A DNA stretch of 64,000 bases from Myxococcales bacterium (GCA_009692425.1 SHZF01000007.1:1-64000), one strand, 5' to 3'. Positions 29,046 to 38,034 are shown, counted from the first letter of the stretch. A program made the numbers and translations. Notes: generated from the letters alone by a model not told the origin.

Positions 29046-29256
29046 GTTGCCTCCTGCCGACCCGGCACGATGCCCGGGAGCGCGACTCCGCGCAAGCAGT
29101 CGGTCGCAGCGGGAGTTTGCGGGCGGCCCCGCGGGTTGAACCGCACCCCCCGGTGCCACCCCGGTGCGAGCGCGCTGGCATTGCGCGGCAGCCTCTGCCA
29201 CCATCGCCGCGCGCGCCACCCAGCAGGCGCGGCCGCCGCTGGCGGGTGCAGCCACT

Positions 29257-30666
29257 ATGTTGACCAATCCTCGCTTCACGCTCGGTCTCGTCGCCGTGCT
29301 GGGCGCTGTTGCAGCGGTGCTGTGGTACGTGCAGCGACCGCCTGCCCCGCCGCCACCTGCCCCGACGGGGATACCGGTCGCCACGGACGTCGTACCACCT
29401 GCAGCCGAACTGAGCCCGACCGCACCGGTGCCCGAAGCGCCGACGGCGGCCGCGGCGGTGGCGGTGGCGGCGCCCGAGGCTCCCACGCTCCTCGATGCAG
29501 GCGCCCCACCTTCCTCGGCGGGGAGCTTCTACGCCCGTTCAGTCGAAGATGGCCTCAAGGTCCTCGATCTCGCGGTCGAGGCGGCGGGCGGCAAGCGCGC
29601 ACTGAGTGGGGTCCAGCGGGCGACGGCGACCCATTTTGCCAGCGGCGACGTGGTCCAGTTCCAGGCAACGGCGGCCCACGATGGCGCCAAGGCCGTGCGA
29701 CTGGCGCTCGCCGACGCCGATACCGTCGTGGGCCAGACGGGCAGCGTCTGCTGGCGCCAGTGGGGTGCGGTCGCAGCACCGTGCCACGACGATGTCGCAC
29801 GCGTCGCCGCGATGTGGCGCTGGATGCACGCGGCATCCGTCATCCTGCCCCTGCGGGAGGCGCCCCTGGAACTGGTCGAAGCGGGCGCGCAGGAGGTCGA
29901 AGGGCGGCGCCTCAACGTGCTGCGCTTCGTGGTTGCAGGTGTCGTCGACGAAGTACAGGTCCACTTCGACCCGACCAGCCACCGCCTGGTGCGCCTCGAA
30001 GTGTCGCGCAAGGACCAGTGCTGCCGCGACGTGGTCGAGTTTTCGGACGCCCGCGGCTTCGCAGGGGCCGCATTGCCGGCGCTGCGCCGCATCGTGTTCG
30101 ACGCCGGTGGCAAGCAGTCGTCGACAGTGACGGCCGTGCTCGCGGATCTGAAGCCCGGCGCAGACGCCGCCGCCTGGCGGGCGCCGCCGTGGACGGAGAA
30201 GGTCGCCATGACCTTGGCGACCCGGCCGGAATTCGTTGCCCTCGAAGTCCGCGCCGGGAGCCACGACGGCATCTACAAGGCAGCCCAGGATGCTGCACAG
30301 TCGCTCGGTGCCGTCAGCCACTTCCTGCACTCCCAGGTCTACGAGGCTCTCGGCGAACCCGGCTCAGCCGAGTCGTTGGCAAGCGACATCCTGGTGTGGC
30401 ACCGACTCGCGCGCGGCGGGTCGGGGGCGCCGCCGAGTGCGAAGAAGCACTCCGTCACGGTGAACGCGGTCGCTGTGGCTCGCACGGTGCTGCGCGTCGC
30501 GTTGGGCGAGGTCATCGGGAGGGCCGCGAACGCGGTGGCCGCCGCACGCAGCAAGGGGCATGGAGCGGCGCCGGGGCGCGTGACGGTCCGATACCTCAGC
30601 GACGTCGATCCGGCGACCCAAGCCGTCACCGTCGAGATCGACGTGCCGGTTCAGCGCGCGCCGTAG
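29257..30666 (+). CDS. membrane-anchored periplasmic protein of unknown function
   Basis: The protein has 469 residues. One N-terminal transmembrane anchor (FTLGLVAVLGAVAAVLWYV) is followed by a Pro/Ala linker of about 60 residues and a soluble periplasmic region. The middle part (FASGDVVQFQATAAHDG, VQVHFDPTSHRLVRLEVS) is faintly reminiscent of LolA/LolB-type lipid-binding folds, but I cannot confirm this. The ribosome site is poor. It is divergent from the lipoprotein at 29045, and its last bases overlap the 3' end of the opposing gene by 16 bases. Confidence 0.7.
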   Translation: MLTNPRFTLGLVAVLGAVAAVLWYVQRPPAPPPPAPTGIPVATDVVPPAAELSPTAPVPEAPTAAAAVAVAAPEAPTLLDAGAPPSSAGSFYARSVEDGLKVLDLAVEAAGGKRALSGVQRATATHFASGDVVQFQATAAHDGAKAVRLALADADTVVGQTGSVCWRQWGAVAAPCHDDVARVAAMWRWMHAASVILPLREAPLELVEAGAQEVEGRRLNVLRFVVAGVVDEVQVHFDPTSHRLVRLEVSRKDQCCRDVVEFSDARGFAGAALPALRRIVFDAGGKQSSTVTAVLADLKPGADAAAWRAPPWTEKVAMTLATRPEFVALEVRAGSHDGIYKAAQDAAQSLGAVSHFLHSQVYEALGEPGSAESLASDILVWHRLARGGSGAPPSAKKHSVTVNAVAVARTVLRVALGEVIGRAANAVAAARSKGHGAAPGRVTVRYLSDVDPATQAVTVEIDVPVQRAP

Positions 30667-31706
30667 GCCGCGGCAGCCAGATCGACGACGGCAAGGCTGC
30701 GACCCGGATGGGCCGACAGTGCGTCGATGGCACGAACCTGCCCGCGCACGGCCTTGGCTACGACCGCGGCGTCGCCGCCCAGACACTCGAACGCCTGGCG
30801 CCACCCCGCGCATGGCAGGGTGACGACGCCTGGCCGGCCGGCCAGCGCGGCCAGGGCCTGGGCTCGGCGGGCTGCGTGATCAGCGTCGGCCAGCGCGACA
30901 AACCCCGGCAGCGCAAGCCCTCTCAACACCGCGAGCGCGTGCTGGAGCGACGGTTCCGGCCAACGCGGCTGGCCTTGCAGCAGCAGGAGACCGGCACCCG
31001 TGCCCGGCGCACACACGATGCCGACGGCGATCGGGTCTGCGGGGGCATCGGGGTCGCGCAGTGCGATCAGGGTGGCGAGCGCCGGCGCCGGTGCCAGCGA
31101 GGAGGTCTGCGCCGGCGCGCCGACCCGGGTCCCGCCACGCCACGGCGCGGCGCCCCAGCCGGCCGCGTGCAGCGCATCGACTACGAGGGCGCGCGGCTGC
31201 ACGAGCGCGATCGACGCCGGCGAAGCCACGCAATCCTGCTCCCTGTCGGGCACCCACACGCGATCGTCGGTACCAAACAGGCTGGGCGCCTCGACGACGG
31301 CCGCGGCGGCGGGCCAGGCCTGCAACGCGCGCACCACGGCGGCGCCGGAAACGGACCCATCGGCGCGGCGACCCACGTCGAGGTAGCGGCCGCCGAGGCC
31401 CAGCAGCGCCGTGATGGCCGCGGCCGGCGCGGGTTCGGCGACCAGGACGACATCGTTTGGCACCACCAGCGCGCCCAGCACGAGTCGGTAGGCATCGAGG
31501 TCGGTCGGGCACACGGCGAGGTCGGTCGAAGCCACACCCAAGGACGCGGCCCAGCGCGCCTGCACCTGCGCCACGAGGTCGCCACGGCCAGCATCGGCGT
31601 CGATGGGCAGATGCTGGAGGCGCGCCCCATCGAGCCAGCAGCGGCTGGCAAAGCGAACGGGATCGAGCCATGGAGAATCGGGCGTTGGCGGCGCGACGGC
31701 GGGCAC
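30651..31706 (-). CDS. degenerate aminotransferase-fold protein of the exopolysaccharide-type locus
   Basis: The protein has 351 residues; GTG 31706 was chosen because GGAG lies six bases upstream. The order of elements (DLAVCPTDLDAYRLVLGAL; PNDVVLVAEPAP, then YLDVGRRADGSV, then AVVEAPSLFGT) follows the large domain of fold-type I PLP aminotransferases. The PLP-binding lysine block is not evident; TSSLAPAPALATL stands where S-K would be expected. It may therefore have lost catalysis. It is the last gene of a five-gene unit. Confidence 0.6.
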   Translation of the reverse strand: MPAVAPPTPDSPWLDPVRFASRCWLDGARLQHLPIDADAGRGDLVAQVQARWAASLGVASTDLAVCPTDLDAYRLVLGALVVPNDVVLVAEPAPAAAITALLGLGGRYLDVGRRADGSVSGAAVVRALQAWPAAAAVVEAPSLFGTDDRVWVPDREQDCVASPASIALVQPRALVVDALHAAGWGAAPWRGGTRVGAPAQTSSLAPAPALATLIALRDPDAPADPIAVGIVCAPGTGAGLLLLQGQPRWPEPSLQHALAVLRGLALPGFVALADADHAARRAQALAALAGRPGVVTLPCAGWRQAFECLGGDAAVVAKAVRGQVRAIDALSAHPGRSLAVVDLAAAAYGAR

Positions 31707-31750
31707 GGCAGGCTCCAGTCGGGGCTCCAGTCGGGGTTCCGAGGCTCTGG

Positions 31751-33160
31751 TCAGGGTTCCCAAGGTAGGTCGGGCCAGCCGAGCCGACAACCGCGCAGTG
31801 TGGCGCGGGGTGCCGCCCCCGCTGCCGGGCGTTCGTTCCAGAGCCACCCCGGATGGCCGTGGGCGACTTCGTCCGCGGCAAACAGGAACCAGACCGTCGG
31901 CGCCGCTGCGGGGCTCAGCGGAAAGTCCTCGCGCCAGATGGGCGAATAGACCAGCGGCACGCCGCCGCTGCACGCGAGCTGGGCGAACGGGTGCAGCGTG
32001 GCACGCGCCTCGGCGAGCGCACCCAGCCGCGCCAGGACCATCGCCACCGCGAGCGACCCTTCGACGAACCAGGTGTCGGGCGCCGCGCGGGCATAGGGTC
32101 GCAAGCCCCGCCAGCCCGCGACGGCAATCGCGTGCTCGGCGGCGACCCAATCCAGCACGCCTCGTGCGCGCAGCGGTTGCCCATGCGCCAGTGCGTACAA
32201 GGCAGCCCAGGTGCCAGCTGCGTCGAGCGCGCTGCGCGTGTCGGTGTGGGTGGCGCCGGCGCCTTGGGCATAGCGGCGCGTTGCCGGCAGCCACAGGCGG
32301 GCCTCGGCGGCCGCGGCGAGTCGGTCGGCGGCGCCGTCGAGCGCGTAACGCCGGTTGAGTTCGGGATCGGCCAAGGCTGCGGCGCGCAAGGCGAACCACG
32401 CATCGAGCACGTGCTCTGTTGCGGTGAAGTCGGCCACGGCGTCCGGATCGAACCGGTCGGGCCCCAACCAACGCCCCGAGCCGGCGCGCACCAGCCCCGT
32501 GCGCGGGTCGATCTGGCCCAACAGCCAACCGACGCCAGCCGCGAGCACCTCGGCAAAACGCCGGTCGCCGCTGTAGCGCTGGTACTTGGCGAAGGCGTAG
32601 ACCACCCAGGCCACGGCACCGGTACGCACGTAGGCCGCGTTGTAGAAGCCGTCATTCTCGACGGCAAACGAAAACCCCCACGCCCCGTCTTCGCGCTGCA
32701 GTGCCGCAAGCGTGTCCAGCAGTCGCGCCGCCGCCGCTACATCACCTGTCCGGACGCGCCACAGCACGACGAGCGCTGCGTCGTAGACCCACGACCGCGT
32801 GACGAGGCGGGAGAACCCGTCGGGTGCCCCGGCAAACCGATCCGGATCTGGAAAACTGATCACCGCTTCGGCATCGGCGCCCCACGAGCGCCGCGCTGTC
32901 CACGAAACGTGGCTTGCGCCGTGCCCGGCATCGTAGAACGGTCCAGGGCGCCAGCGCTTGACGACCAGCGACGTGCGCGCCCGTGCCGCCTCGCGCACCA
33001 GGTCGGCCGCCACGCAGGGTCCGCTGGTCGGGCGCTCCAACTGGGCGCTGCCGCAGCCGGCCGCAGCCGCCGCCGCACAGGTCACGCCAACGGTCGCGCC
33101 AACGTTGCGTGCCCAGCGCGCCAAGCCCGGCACGGCAACCGCCCGCACCGAAACCCGCAC
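31751..33160 (-). CDS. lipoprotein with alpha/alpha-toroid (glycoside-hydrolase-like) domain
   Basis: The protein has 469 residues; GTG 33160 lies two bases after the glycosyltransferase stop codon. Signal with lipobox AAGC (Cys36). The rest is helical repeats with Trp/Tyr/Asp-rich turns (SRLVTRSWVYDAALVVLW; LQREDGAWGFSF; DAWFALRAAAL; PDTWFVEGSLAVAMVLARL), as in (alpha/alpha)6 glycoside hydrolases and lyases. I infer a role in trimming or binding the polymer made by the neighbouring GT2 synthase. No catalytic residue can be named. Confidence 0.75.
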   Translation of the reverse strand: MRVSVRAVAVPGLARWARNVGATVGVTCAAAAAAGCGSAQLERPTSGPCVAADLVREAARARTSLVVKRWRPGPFYDAGHGASHVSWTARRSWGADAEAVISFPDPDRFAGAPDGFSRLVTRSWVYDAALVVLWRVRTGDVAAAARLLDTLAALQREDGAWGFSFAVENDGFYNAAYVRTGAVAWVVYAFAKYQRYSGDRRFAEVLAAGVGWLLGQIDPRTGLVRAGSGRWLGPDRFDPDAVADFTATEHVLDAWFALRAAALADPELNRRYALDGAADRLAAAAEARLWLPATRRYAQGAGATHTDTRSALDAAGTWAALYALAHGQPLRARGVLDWVAAEHAIAVAGWRGLRPYARAAPDTWFVEGSLAVAMVLARLGALAEARATLHPFAQLACSGGVPLVYSPIWREDFPLSPAAAPTVWFLFAADEVAHGHPGWLWNERPAAGAAPRATLRGCRLGWPDLPWEP

Positions 33161-33162
33161 TG

Positions 33163-35655
33163 CTACTTCTGGCCCGACAGGATGCGGTCGACGAGCGGTG
33201 CATACACGGTCCACATCAGCCGCACGTCTTCGGGCAACAGGTCTACCTTGGCCATCCACAACCGGATGCGCGGCACCAGTGCCAGCCAGGGCGGGCCAAG
33301 GGCACTCTCGCCATCGGCCATGTCGCCGCACATGTACACGCGCTGCAGCGCATCGTCGTGCACGATGGCGGGAAAGCGCGAGGGCACGCCGAACCGCTTC
33401 ATCAGCCGGGCGCCCTGGACGGTCGCGCTCAGGCGAAACTCGGCCCGCACATGGCTCGGCACATCGGCAGTCACGATGTCGAACCAGTACGTGTAGGGGA
33501 TGTGCTCTTCGCCCGCATGCAGCACGAGCGGGTTCTCGGTGATGTCGGTCTGCTCCACCAGACACAGCACGCGCCCGTCTTCGTGAATCAGCAGGATGCC
33601 GGGCCCGACGAGGTCGAACGGCTTGCCGGTCTCTTCGGCCCACCGCTTCTGCACCCACTGTGCGGTCTCGCGGTCGTCGCCGAACTCGTCCACGTGGCGG
33701 CCCGCCCAGCCCGACCAACGCACGCCGAGAATGTCTTCCATGCGGCGGCGCGGACTCGGCGCGGTCGGCGTCGCAAAAGTATTGAACTGCGCGACGATGC
33801 GCCCGCCGGCCTGGACGAACCGCTCGACTGCGTCCATTTCGATGTCGTCGGTGCCGCCAAAAATCTTGCGCGACGGTTCGAGGTGCGCGACGGGGCGCGG
33901 CATGGCATCGAAGTCGTCGCTGTAGACCCCGCAGGTGTCGACGAACCACACGAGGTTGCGGCCGACGAGGTCCTGGTCGGTCAGCGTGCGGCCCACCCGC
34001 GTGTCGGGGTCCCAGCCGACGTAGTCGAGCTTGAGATTCCACAGGAGCTTCGAGGTCGGCGGCTCGGCCTTGGCCTGGCTCAGCAGCCACATCGGTCGTT
34101 GGTGCTCGCGGCGGTTCTCAAACGGCACGGTCTTGTTGATCAACAACACCTTGGCGGGCGGAATCGGCTTGACGAGCCAGCCTACCGGCAGCACCAGCAA
34201 GGCCGCGAGCAGCAGCGTCGTGACGATGGGCCAGATGTTCGGCGCACCGTCGCGGCGGCGGTTGCTGAGCGCGCCAAAGCCGACGCGCTGCATGCGGCCC
34301 CACGTCTTGCGGCCGCGCATGTAGCCGTACAGGCCGCGCAGCCGAAACCACAGGATCAACTGGCGGTAGCCGATGTTCTCGAGCAGCGCGACGCTGATGA
34401 GGCGCCATATGTCGAAGCGCTGCCGAAAGAAGCCGAGCGTCAGTTCTTCGAGCAGGATCGAGCCGAGCGACAGCAAGAAGCCGATCAGGATCGCGAGCAC
34501 GAAAAACGCCGCCGCGAACCACAGATCGATCACGCCGCCGATGAGCATGACGAAGAAGTAGTTGTAGCCGAAAAGCTCGACCACCGGGCCAAACAACTCG
34601 AACAAGATGAAGAACGGCATCACGACGAGGCCGATCGGCCCATAGCGACGGTTGAACGTCATCTTGCGGTGGCGCCACAGCGTGTCGGCCAGGCCGCGCT
34701 GCCAGCGGTCGCGCTGGTTGCCGAGGATGCGCAGGACCTCGGGCGCTTCGGTGAAGGCGACGGGATCGGGCAGGTGCACGATGGCGCGGCCCTGCAACCA
34801 GGACGGCACCTGGTGGCGCAGGCGCGTGACGAGTTCCATGTCCTCGCCCACGGAGTCGTGCGCGTAGCCGCCGGCCGCGATGACCGTCGAGCGCCGGAAC
34901 AGCCCGAATGCGCCGGAGATGATGAGGTTGCCGCCCATCTTGTCCCAGCCCAGCCGGCCGACGAGGAAGGCGCGCAAGTATTCGACGACCTGGAAGCGCG
35001 CGATCCACGAATGCGGCAAGCCCATCTCGACGACCGCGCCGCGCTCGATCTTGCACCCGTTGGCCAGGCAGATCGTGCCGCCGACCGCGATCACGTCGAC
35101 GTCGGTCAAGAACGGGCGGACGAGGCGGAGCAATGCGTCGGGCAGGATCAGCGTGTCGGCATCGATCGCGCACACGAGCGGAAAGCGACTGGCATTGATC
35201 GAACAGTTCAGGGCGTCGGACTTGCCGCCGTTCTCCTTGTCGATGACGATCAGGCGCTTGTAGATGGCCGAGCGGTACGTGGCGCGGATCGGCTTGCACG
35301 GCAGTTCGAGGCGGATGTCGATCGGCACGGCCTCCAGCGCAAAGGCCTGGCGCAACTTGGCGAGCGTCTTGTCGGACGAGCCGTCGTTGACGACCACCAC
35401 TTCGTGCTCCGGGTAGCGCAGCTTGAGCAGCGCGCGCACCGACTCGACGACCGTCTTCTCCTCGTTGTGGGCCGGCACGAGGATCGAGATCGGCAGGGTC
35501 GCGCGGCCCCGCGTGCTGACGGATTCCGGGCTGGAGCCCTCGAGATCGCGCCGCACCTGGATCACGCCGACCGCGGCGGCGATGAAAAGCGCAATGTACC
35601 CCGCCGTCAGCAGCACGAAGTAGAGCAGCACCACGATGTTGAAGAACTCGATCAA
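33163..35655 (-). CDS. GT2 processive glycosyltransferase with extra C-terminal domain
   Basis: The protein is 830 residues from TTG 35655, which has AGGA six bases upstream and avoids the upstream gene; ATG 35727 or 35823 would overlap it. An N-terminal membrane helix is followed by the GT-A domain: ISILVPAHNEE, VVVNDGSS, Asp-Ala-Asp at about 165, GED at about 270, and QRDRW at about 314, the polymer-exit motif of PgaC/cellulose-synthase-type enzymes. Several membrane helices follow, including one at about 475. Residues about 500-830 form an extra soluble domain (WFVDTCGVYSDDF, GGRIVAQFNTFATPT) resembling an amidotransferase-like fold. It should polymerise and export a polysaccharide. Confidence 0.88.
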   Translation of the reverse strand: MIEFFNIVVLLYFVLLTAGYIALFIAAAVGVIQVRRDLEGSSPESVSTRGRATLPISILVPAHNEEKTVVESVRALLKLRYPEHEVVVVNDGSSDKTLAKLRQAFALEAVPIDIRLELPCKPIRATYRSAIYKRLIVIDKENGGKSDALNCSINASRFPLVCAIDADTLILPDALLRLVRPFLTDVDVIAVGGTICLANGCKIERGAVVEMGLPHSWIARFQVVEYLRAFLVGRLGWDKMGGNLIISGAFGLFRRSTVIAAGGYAHDSVGEDMELVTRLRHQVPSWLQGRAIVHLPDPVAFTEAPEVLRILGNQRDRWQRGLADTLWRHRKMTFNRRYGPIGLVVMPFFILFELFGPVVELFGYNYFFVMLIGGVIDLWFAAAFFVLAILIGFLLSLGSILLEELTLGFFRQRFDIWRLISVALLENIGYRQLILWFRLRGLYGYMRGRKTWGRMQRVGFGALSNRRRDGAPNIWPIVTTLLLAALLVLPVGWLVKPIPPAKVLLINKTVPFENRREHQRPMWLLSQAKAEPPTSKLLWNLKLDYVGWDPDTRVGRTLTDQDLVGRNLVWFVDTCGVYSDDFDAMPRPVAHLEPSRKIFGGTDDIEMDAVERFVQAGGRIVAQFNTFATPTAPSPRRRMEDILGVRWSGWAGRHVDEFGDDRETAQWVQKRWAEETGKPFDLVGPGILLIHEDGRVLCLVEQTDITENPLVLHAGEEHIPYTYWFDIVTADVPSHVRAEFRLSATVQGARLMKRFGVPSRFPAIVHDDALQRVYMCGDMADGESALGPPWLALVPRIRLWMAKVDLLPEDVRLMWTVYAPLVDRILSGQK

Positions 35656-35692
35656 GCGACGTCCTGCAGCGGCAGACGGGTGTCGGCGCAGT

Positions 35693-36781
35693 TCATGCGG
35701 GCTGGGCGTGGGCGGTGGCGCCGGCATCGGCGACGGTGAGGCGAGCTTCGGCCAGCGCGTTGCTGGCGGCGTGGTTGCCACGGGCGGCGGCGGCGCGTAA
35801 CGCGGTGGAACCGGCCGGACCACATTTGCCCAAGGCTAGTGCGGCATTGTGACGCACCCACTCCTCATCGTCATCGAGCAGGCGCGCAATCGCATCGACC
35901 GAGCCCGCGGCGCCGAGCGCGCCTGCGGTGCGGGCGGCCTCGGAGCGGACTTGCCACCGTTCGTCCTCCAACGCCTTGAGTACGACAGACAGGCCGGACG
36001 CGTCGCCGAGTTCGCGCAGCCCCTTGAGCGCCTGGATGCGGACCTCGGCGTCGCTGTCGAGCACGGCTTGGATCAGCACGTCGAGGCCGTCGCGCACGTG
36101 GCCCATGCCCAGCGCGGCGACGGCAATCTGGCGCACTTCCGCCGACTCGGCCTGCGCGGCACCGACGAGCTCCGCTTCGGGCACGGGCCGAGCGCTGGCC
36201 AGCGCATCGGTGGCACGCATCCGGTTGAGGCGACCGTCGAGCGCGATCTCCGGCAGCGCCACCATCGCCTCGTCGGCGCGGCCGAGCATGCACAGGGCTT
36301 CGAATGCGCTCAGGCGCACGTCGGGGGCTTCGTCGTGGACGGCGCGCTCAAGAATGCGCGCCGGGTCGTTGAGCGCGCGGGCTTCGCGGATGGCCCGCAG
36401 GCGCTCCCACGGCCGGGCCACAATATGCGAACGGGCTTCGGCGGCGAGGTTGGTCGCAACGTAGAGCTCCTCGAACACCTGGGTCTGCCCCTGCCTGGCG
36501 AGTTCGGCCATCTCCGTCAGCAGGCGGCGTGCATGGTCCTTCGTCAGCGACGACAGCACGGAGACGGCCTGCTGTTTGACCTGGGCCGGCGCGCCGGGGC
36601 CCATCTGGCTGACCAGCGCGGCGAGGTCGCGTTTGACCGTGCTGAACATCTGTTCGCGGCGGATGGCCCGATCGCGCACGATGATCATGGCGACGATGGC
36701 GATGACGACGACCACCAGTTCGATCACGACGAACACGAGGATCATCAGTTCAGAAAACGTGAGTTGGTCGACGCGGATCAC
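35693..36781 (-). CDS. membrane-anchored HEAT-repeat protein
   Basis: The protein has 362 residues; GTG 36781 overlaps the upstream stop by GTGA. One N-terminal transmembrane helix (FVVIELVVVVIAIVAMIIV) is followed by a cytoplasmic helical region and HEAT/PBS-type repeats (DVRLSAFEALCMLG, EVRQIAVAALGMG, EVRIQALKGLRELG, QVRSEAARTAGALG, WVRHNAALALGKCG). HEAT solenoids are protein-binding scaffolds. Position between YaiO and GT2 suggests it assembles or regulates the synthase complex. Confidence 0.88.
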   Translation of the reverse strand: MIRVDQLTFSELMILVFVVIELVVVVIAIVAMIIVRDRAIRREQMFSTVKRDLAALVSQMGPGAPAQVKQQAVSVLSSLTKDHARRLLTEMAELARQGQTQVFEELYVATNLAAEARSHIVARPWERLRAIREARALNDPARILERAVHDEAPDVRLSAFEALCMLGRADEAMVALPEIALDGRLNRMRATDALASARPVPEAELVGAAQAESAEVRQIAVAALGMGHVRDGLDVLIQAVLDSDAEVRIQALKGLRELGDASGLSVVLKALEDERWQVRSEAARTAGALGAAGSVDAIARLLDDDEEWVRHNAALALGKCGPAGSTALRAAAARGNHAASNALAEARLTVADAGATAHAQPA

Positions 36782-38034
36782 AGTTTGCCTCGCAGCAGCA
36801 CGGCGATCTCGTTCCAAGCGGCGGCGCTGCCCTGCAGCGGCTGCACGCGCGACACCGAGGCGCGCATGCCAAGGCGGCCGGTGAACCAATGGTCGATGCC
36901 GAGCAGTACCGTCACGCCACCACCGGGCACACTGCCGAAGCGCTCGACGAACGCCGAATCCTGACCGTAGTACAGCCACGCGAACCATGCCGTGTGTGCC
37001 GTGCGGTCCCAGCGCACCTTGAGGGAGCCCGTGTGGGTCGCGGCGCCCGGCAGTTGCTGCACGAACATGTAGCCCGGCGACAGGGTCCAGTCGCGCACGG
37101 TGAAGAACAACGTCGGCGAAAACCCCGCCACGTCGAGGTTGTCGTAGCGTGCGAACCGCAGGTAGGCACCGGCCGCGAAAGCCCGCGCGATCCGGACGGA
37201 GCCGTCGAGGCGCGCATCGAACGATGGCAGGAACGTGGGGTTCGGCGAGCCGCTCACATGGCCCATAATCGCCAGCCGACCGAGGCCCGCATACAGTTCG
37301 GCGCGCCAGCCGGAGTCAGTGGCCTCGGGCCGCGCTTCGACGACGCCGCCCCCGAGCAAGACCAGGGTGCCGTCGAACAGCCGCCGCGACACCGCGAGGT
37401 CGAAACGCGGCCAGGTGCGCAGACCGGCATTGACGACCGTGCCGCCGAGGTCGAACTGCCACGGATGCAGCGCGCGGTCCGTGGCAAGCGATTGCTCGTC
37501 GTTCAGTTGCCCGCCTAGCCTCAGCGCGGCGCGGGCATCGGCCAGGCGGCCCACCTCGACGTACAGGTCGATGAGTCGCTGGTGCAGGTCGGAGCGGACG
37601 GCACCCAACGCCTCCATGCGCTCGTAGCCCTGAATGGCGCCGGCGCGGTCGCCGGCCACCAGGCGCAACTGTGCAATGAACTCCAGCACGTCGGTGTCGT
37701 CGGGGTGCTCGCGCAGCAGCGCCTCCGCTTCGGTGCGGGCAGCGGTGCCGTGCCCGAGCCAGAACAGCAGCCGGGAGTGCAGCAGGCGCGCCTCGTCGTC
37801 ACCGGGCTGCACGCGCAACAGTTGTTCGACCGCAACCAACGCCTCGGGCAGCTTGCCAGCGCGCACGAGTGACTGGGGGGTCTCTGCCGGCAGTTCCGGG
37901 CCACGCGCTGCGGGGTCGAACCCGGGCGCGCGCGCCGGCTGGGCAGGCGTGCCGGGCCCGGGCTGGGCGAAAACGGGCCCGGCGGCCGCAAAAACCGCGC
38001 CGACCAGCACGGACACAACGCCCTGTTGGCGCAT
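36778..38034 (-). CDS. YaiO-like TPR/beta-barrel outer-membrane protein
   Basis: The protein is 418 residues from ATG 38034, which gives a clean signal peptide (VSVLVGAVFAAAGPVFA). About 130 residues of TPR-like helices come next (EALVAVEQLLRVQPGDDEARLL; TEAEALLREHPDDTDVLEFIAQLRL). The last 240 residues are beta-strands of an outer-membrane barrel ending in a short strand (AWNEIAVLLRGKL). This layout matches the YaiO family and parallels PgaA/BcsC exporters. It is likely the outer-membrane part of a polysaccharide exporter. Confidence 0.85.
   Translation of the reverse strand: MRQQGVVSVLVGAVFAAAGPVFAQPGPGTPAQPARAPGFDPAARGPELPAETPQSLVRAGKLPEALVAVEQLLRVQPGDDEARLLHSRLLFWLGHGTAARTEAEALLREHPDDTDVLEFIAQLRLVAGDRAGAIQGYERMEALGAVRSDLHQRLIDLYVEVGRLADARAALRLGGQLNDEQSLATDRALHPWQFDLGGTVVNAGLRTWPRFDLAVSRRLFDGTLVLLGGGVVEARPEATDSGWRAELYAGLGRLAIMGHVSGSPNPTFLPSFDARLDGSVRIARAFAAGAYLRFARYDNLDVAGFSPTLFFTVRDWTLSPGYMFVQQLPGAATHTGSLKVRWDRTAHTAWFAWLYYGQDSAFVERFGSVPGGGVTVLLGIDHWFTGRLGMRASVSRVQPLQGSAAAWNEIAVLLRGKL

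Follow-up and report, generated by a model that had tools for sequence, protein, structure and literature searches.

A probable HEAT–GT2 exopolysaccharide synthase locus in a Myxococcales bacterium, and its relatives across phyla

Few synthase-dependent polysaccharide systems are known (cellulose, PNAG, alginate and Pel), and most of them are controlled by c-di-GMP. Does the locus described here represent another? It lies in a stretch of 64,000 nucleotides (‘the window’) from a Myxococcales bacterium, the assembly of which amounts to 4.94 Mb in 137 contigs and is 96% complete. A first-pass annotation proposed that five compactly arranged genes, for a YaiO-like exporter, a HEAT-repeat protein, a GT2 synthase, a toroid lipoprotein and an aminotransferase-fold protein, define a distinct synthase-dependent polymer system. 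We find it probable that the locus encodes a machine for the synthase-dependent assembly and export of an exopolysaccharide, of a kind we refer to as ‘HEAT–GT2’.

The compact locus itself is real (Table 1). The five ORFs, all on the minus strand, run from the ATG of the YaiO-like ORF at 38034 to the stop codon of the aminotransferase-fold ORF at 30651, and coordinates, strand and close packing hold throughout. The YaiO-like and HEAT ORFs overlap by 4 bp, and the HEAT and GT2 ORFs by 35 bp; 2 bp separate GT2 from the toroid ORF, and the last junction is either a 13 bp overlap or a 44 bp gap, according to the start chosen. The GT2 ORF is a fusion, a feature absent from the first-pass annotation, of a synthase of ~480 aa with an extracytoplasmic C-terminal domain (CTD) of ~370 aa. 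The order YaiO–HEAT–GT2/CTD–toroid is kept in 14 of the 14 same-family loci examined, and this conservation, at 70–86% identity for GT2 and 43–62% for HEAT, confirms the reading frames. Upstream of the YaiO-like gene, and in the same direction, are ribD and ribE; the longer series RibD–RibE–YaiO–HEAT–GT2/CTD–toroid is retained in 13 of the 14. At the other end, a protein of ~470 aa (29254–30666, plus strand), for which Pfam gave no match, is convergent with the aminotransferase-fold gene, their stop codons overlapping, and it adjoins this gene in two close relatives (L042 and L043) as well.

Table 1. Features of the locus, in window coordinates
Feature	Coordinates	Strand	Evidence or remarks
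Aminotransferase-like protein	30651..31763	-	Start uncertain: TTG 31763 or GTG 31706
Helical-hairpin (toroid-like) repeat lipoprotein, candidate	31751..33160	-	Family alignment; phylum-wide matches
CTD of GT2 ORF	33163..34287	-	Membrane helix aa 501–519, then extracytoplasmic ThuA/GATase1-like domain
GT2 synthase domain	34288..35727	-	Pfam PF00535 2e-20; motifs; alignment; hydropathy
HEAT-repeat protein	35693..36781	-	Pfam HEAT_2 9e-20; hydropathy
YaiO-like outer-membrane exporter, probable	36778..38034	-	Pfam TPR_19 7e-12; TIGR04390; hhalign

The GT2 and HEAT labels are solid, both by Pfam. The synthase carries the motifs of processive enzymes, VVNDGS (D115), DAD (189–191), GED (295–296) and QRDRW (338–342), which are invariant in the family alignment, and hydropathy places membrane helices at aa 31–49, 365–396 and 408–426. 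This combination of D, DxD, ED and QxxRW motifs with membrane helices is the one looked for in synthase-dependent exopolysaccharide secretion in general. Among named models, PgaC_IcaA is the best (E 3e-33) but reaches 115 bits against a cut-off of 422, and CelA 34 bits against 699; assignment as PgaC, NodC, CelA or an XrtG-type enzyme was rejected, since all scores are far below the model cut-offs. The GT2 model, in turn, gives 484–562 bits to proteins of Mesorhizobium, Haloarcula, Erythrobacter and Emticicia, versus 118, 55 and 38 bits to PgaC, YaiP and BcsA of Escherichia coli. Identity is ~30% to PgaC, the nearest E. coli synthase, and ~21% to BcsA. In a quick maximum-likelihood tree, 58 sequences form a group from which PgaC and its relatives are excluded (support 94; the outgroup branches are long). 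By these sequence criteria the GT2 is a separate subfamily, on a branch of its own apart from PgaC, YaiP and BcsA.

Beside the GT2 stands a membrane-anchored inner-membrane partner. The HEAT protein has a single N-terminal membrane helix (aa ~12–30) followed by basic residues, because of which its solenoid is predicted to be cytosolic. To follow the pair more widely, one genome per species was scanned with the GT2 alignment and the best 80 GT2 loci were kept. In 63 of the 73 with enough upstream sequence, HEAT is directly upstream of GT2 or fused to it, and no other HEAT match occurs in the 1.39 Mb around the relatives’ GT2 genes. The layout resembles that in the window: of 63 HEAT partners encoded by genes of their own, 61 have a strong hydrophobic helix. 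One locus encodes HEAT and GT2 in a single polypeptide (L138:8543-11416); in three others (L105, L127 and L136) the GT2 ORF is similarly long, extended at its N terminus by ~500 aa in which the HEAT model finds no match. From its placement and predicted topology, the HEAT protein is most likely a cytosolic co-polymerase or regulator.

These best 80 loci come from Gemmatimonadota, Bacteroidota, Bacillota, Pseudomonadota, Acidobacteriota, Actinomycetota, Bdellovibrionota, Spirochaetota, Nitrospirota, haloarchaea and others; by sequence matching, the HEAT–GT2 core is found in archaea as well as in over a dozen bacterial phyla. In 64 of the 80, receiver-domain genes occur no more than 7 kb away, and two-component control is therefore likely. 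Public annotations agree with operons of receiver–YaiO–HEAT–GT2 on a Mesorhizobium plasmid, receiver–TPR–HEAT–GT2 in Erythrobacter and receiver–HEAT–GT2 in Haloarcula. On a plasmid of Erythrobacter aureus (L146), the receiver–TPR–HEAT–GT2 series is embedded in a cluster of flagellar genes, with fliP on one side and motAB on the other. YaiO-type exporters are near GT2 in about 25–30 of the best 80 loci, a TIM-barrel protein of ~750 aa in 19, and the CTD in 12. The TIM-barrel family, without a match in Pfam, has two conserved glutamates placed where a clan-A glycoside hydrolase would have them, and we infer that it is an enzyme of this type. Its genes adjoin HEAT–GT2 in Bacillota, in genomes of the window’s phylum and in a haloarchaeon (e.g. 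L123:6500-8743 and L054:12483-14756); in the window’s own genome, the gene is on another contig, C98, away from the locus (L150:7065-9398). Two usual parts of the wider system, receiver domains and the TIM-barrel hydrolase, are thus missing at the window locus, where neither a receiver nor a c-di-GMP receptor was seen.

The exporter label is less direct than those of GT2 and HEAT. The protein has a signal peptide, TPR repeats at aa ~55–140 and a predicted beta-barrel at aa ~200–418. The TPR scaffold is clear; the barrel match (TIGR04390 OMP_YaiO_dom, aa 225–398, E 1e-5) stays below the cut-off, at 25.5 bits against 32. Profile–profile comparison with true YaiO proteins backs the label (hhalign, 99% probability over 307 columns, partly TPR-driven). 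The YaiO family model PF19413 is silent across the window’s genome; the homologue in another locus (L054) passes the curated cut-off (34.6 versus 23.9). To E. coli YaiO itself, hhalign gave no match. On profile evidence, the protein is most likely an exporter.

The CTD, the last ~370 aa or about the C-terminal third of the GT2 ORF, has no sequence match in Pfam or the PDB. Its AlphaFold2 model is an alpha/beta fold (pLDDT 81.9, pTM 0.80), nearest to ThuA-like and GATase1-like structures (best Foldseek match 4e5v, ThuA-like, E 8e-4, prob 0.99) and more weakly to GH42 beta-galactosidases; comparison with a viral fold library gave nothing significant. On this model, the CTD is an extracytoplasmic domain in its own right, its fold of the ThuA/GATase1 kind. 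The GT2–CTD fusion is found in each of the 22 same-family genomes. Elsewhere in the phylum the CTD is a gene of its own directly after GT2 (L055 and L056), and in some Bacillota and one Spirochaete it is fused to the TIM-barrel protein (L074, L075, L077 and L138). It is present in 22 of 189 phylum genomes, all of which also hold a HEAT-type GT2; outside the window’s family the association is 4/4 CTD genomes (Fisher p 5e-5, uncorrected for relatedness). One same-family genome, G011, encodes on other contigs (L031 and L035) an additional GT2, this one unfused, and an additional CTD, and an ancestral two-gene form may survive there beside the fusion.

‘Toroid’ is a candidate label, plausible from the repeated helical hairpins, QxxDGxW motifs and conserved acidic residues of the protein, although Pfam and the PDB gave no significant match. 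A lipobox cysteine is seen in several homologues. The single-sequence AlphaFold model (pLDDT 40) was not used, and the idea of a BcsZ-like hydrolase was rejected as there was no match to BcsZ. Strong toroid matches occur in 26 of the 189 phylum genomes, and all 26 are among the 34 that hold a HEAT-type GT2; outside the window’s family the figure is 8/8 strong toroid genomes (Fisher p 8e-10, uncorrected for relatedness). Three weak, partial matches come from phylum genomes without the GT2. In loci of other phyla (L062–L141) there was no match up to E 10. By these distributions, the lipoprotein tracks the HEAT-type GT2 within the phylum.

For the fifth protein, profiles match type I aminotransferases, and the best PDB match (E 5e-4) lends the label weak support; the single lysine, K337, is away from the PLP position, and no lysine is among the invariant columns of the family where a Schiff-base lysine would be sought. 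The protein is probably a pseudoenzyme, as far as its residues tell. Apart from the window, only 5 of 14 close relatives have its gene, which, on this distribution, is a lineage add-on rather than core. Five genes as the unit of the system were rejected on this account, the aminotransferase-fold gene being confined to close relatives and the toroid to the phylum; the system, moreover, extends beyond five genes. The broader idea of a distinct synthase-dependent polymer system is supported, in that the HEAT–GT2 pair is kept across phyla, the GT2 forms a separate subfamily and the genome has no BcsB.

Read by sequence alone, then, the locus comprises a processive-type inner-membrane GT2, an adjoining single-pass HEAT protein, a probable TPR-plus-barrel exporter, a CTD tethered to the synthase and a helical-repeat lipoprotein. 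The GT2 would polymerise a UDP-sugar, and a channel of its own would carry the chain across the membrane. The HEAT solenoid would dock on the GT2 from the cytosol and gate it, replacing partners of the PgaD, BcsB or PilZ type, and could relay phospho-signals to it where receiver genes occur. The CTD may take up the emerging chain; the toroid lipoprotein, with the TIM-barrel hydrolase encoded elsewhere in the genome, may trim or bind it in the periplasm; and the YaiO-like TPR barrel would move it across the outer membrane. The aminotransferase-fold protein would be a late, non-catalytic addition.

How does this compare with what is known? The PNAG system (PgaABCD) likewise has an inner-membrane processive GT2, and its exporter unites TPR and beta-barrel in one protein, as the YaiO-like protein probably does; here a HEAT protein takes the place of PgaD, and a ThuA-like CTD and helical-repeat lipoprotein are found instead of the PgaB deacetylase/hydrolase. 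The cellulose system (BcsABZC) shares the DxD, ED and QxxRW motifs and the logic of a TPR-barrel exporter, and differs in its GT2, in BcsZ, which the toroid does not resemble, and in BcsB (PF03170), without a match in the whole genome. E. coli YaiO–YaiP pairs a YaiO-family barrel with a nearby GT2 but has no HEAT protein, and YaiP falls far short of the at least 484 bits of true relatives. The absence of PelA, PgaB and BcsB noted in the first-pass annotation was borne out, PelA, PelF and PelG by Pfam and NCBIfam in the locus, and PgaB by a Pfam scan of the five proteins and two flanking ORFs; PgaD is also absent from the locus. GT2-centred biofilm polysaccharide operons outside Pel, Pga and Bcs include Xanthomonas XagABCD and the stalk cluster of iron oxidisers (PMC3609779, PMC4643136); the related stalk GT2 has an N-terminal EpsE-like domain and is paired with a BcsB-like protein (PMC8250860). 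Compared by their descriptions, which mention no HEAT partner, these were judged to be different. Open-access full text, the extent of our search (subscription papers and preprints lay outside it), held no paper describing HEAT–GT2 as a system or naming its polymer, and no homologous locus already assigned to a known one. Such absence is no proof, and we regard the system as undescribed provisionally.

Could the locus nevertheless be a divergent Pga (poly-GlcNAc) system, with PgaD and PgaB replaced? PgaC_IcaA is the best named GT2 model, PgaC the nearest E. coli synthase, and the probable exporter, like PgaA, combines TPR repeats with a barrel; against this, the score is far under the PgaC cut-off, the GT2 falls outside the PgaC branch (itself long), and the locus has a HEAT partner and neither a PgaB-type deacetylase nor PgaD. 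We think this unlikely. Somewhat less likely again, the GT2 might make a short glycan, a glycolipid or a surface-protein glycan, the YaiO-like protein being no exporter of long polymers. The polymer has never been isolated, and archaeal and Gram-positive members keep HEAT–GT2 though they have no outer membrane; yet processive synthases typically have the QxxRW motif and several membrane helices, as this GT2 does, and YaiO-type exporters go with many Gram-negative members. Chance clustering of unrelated genes, over-read because the stretch is compact, is very improbable: HEAT–GT2 adjacency across phyla and family-wide synteny exclude it for the core. It is refuted for YaiO, HEAT, GT2–CTD and toroid, and stands for the aminotransferase-fold gene only, which, like the neighbouring riboflavin genes, is functionally unrelated.

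Returning to the HEAT–GT2 machine, a bolder version, which we hold tentatively and would sooner doubt than back, sees a cross-domain synthase class in which a tethered cytosolic HEAT solenoid is both obligatory co-polymerase and phospho-signal receiver, served outside the cytoplasm by a set of modules (a ThuA-like domain, a clan-A-like hydrolase without a Pfam family, a lipoprotein of helical repeats and a YaiO exporter) and making a polymer not yet described. The HEAT–GT2 core, usually near receiver genes, would represent an important, uncharacterised way of making matrix polymers; its proximity to two-component receivers would point to a control principle other than c-di-GMP, and three protein families without a Pfam entry would gain a role.

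As to the polymer, our guess is a beta-linked amino-sugar type, solely by analogy with PgaC, the nearest named synthase. Some Bacteroidota have a GT2 joined in one protein with a sulfatase/LtaS-like domain of ~650 aa (L093:9950-13387, the one covered by the domain search; also L094, L095 and L118), which suggests a polymer carrying a phospho-group in those organisms; in Flavobacteria the fusion recalls BcsG of the cellulose system. In one Paenibacillus group a UDP-glucose dehydrogenase gene follows HEAT–GT2 (L115:12240-13637 and other Paenibacillus loci), a hint of a uronic-acid-containing polymer there. The gene order of the Paenibacillus loci is also that of NELoc-2, an enteritis-associated locus of Clostridium perfringens with CotH and VTC genes, the likeness resting on the published gene table, which lists, in order, a 685 aa hypothetical protein, a 377 aa HEAT protein and a 466 aa GT2 (‘chitin synthase’) and gives the HEAT–GT2 pair no function (Lepp et al. 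2010, PMC2879425).
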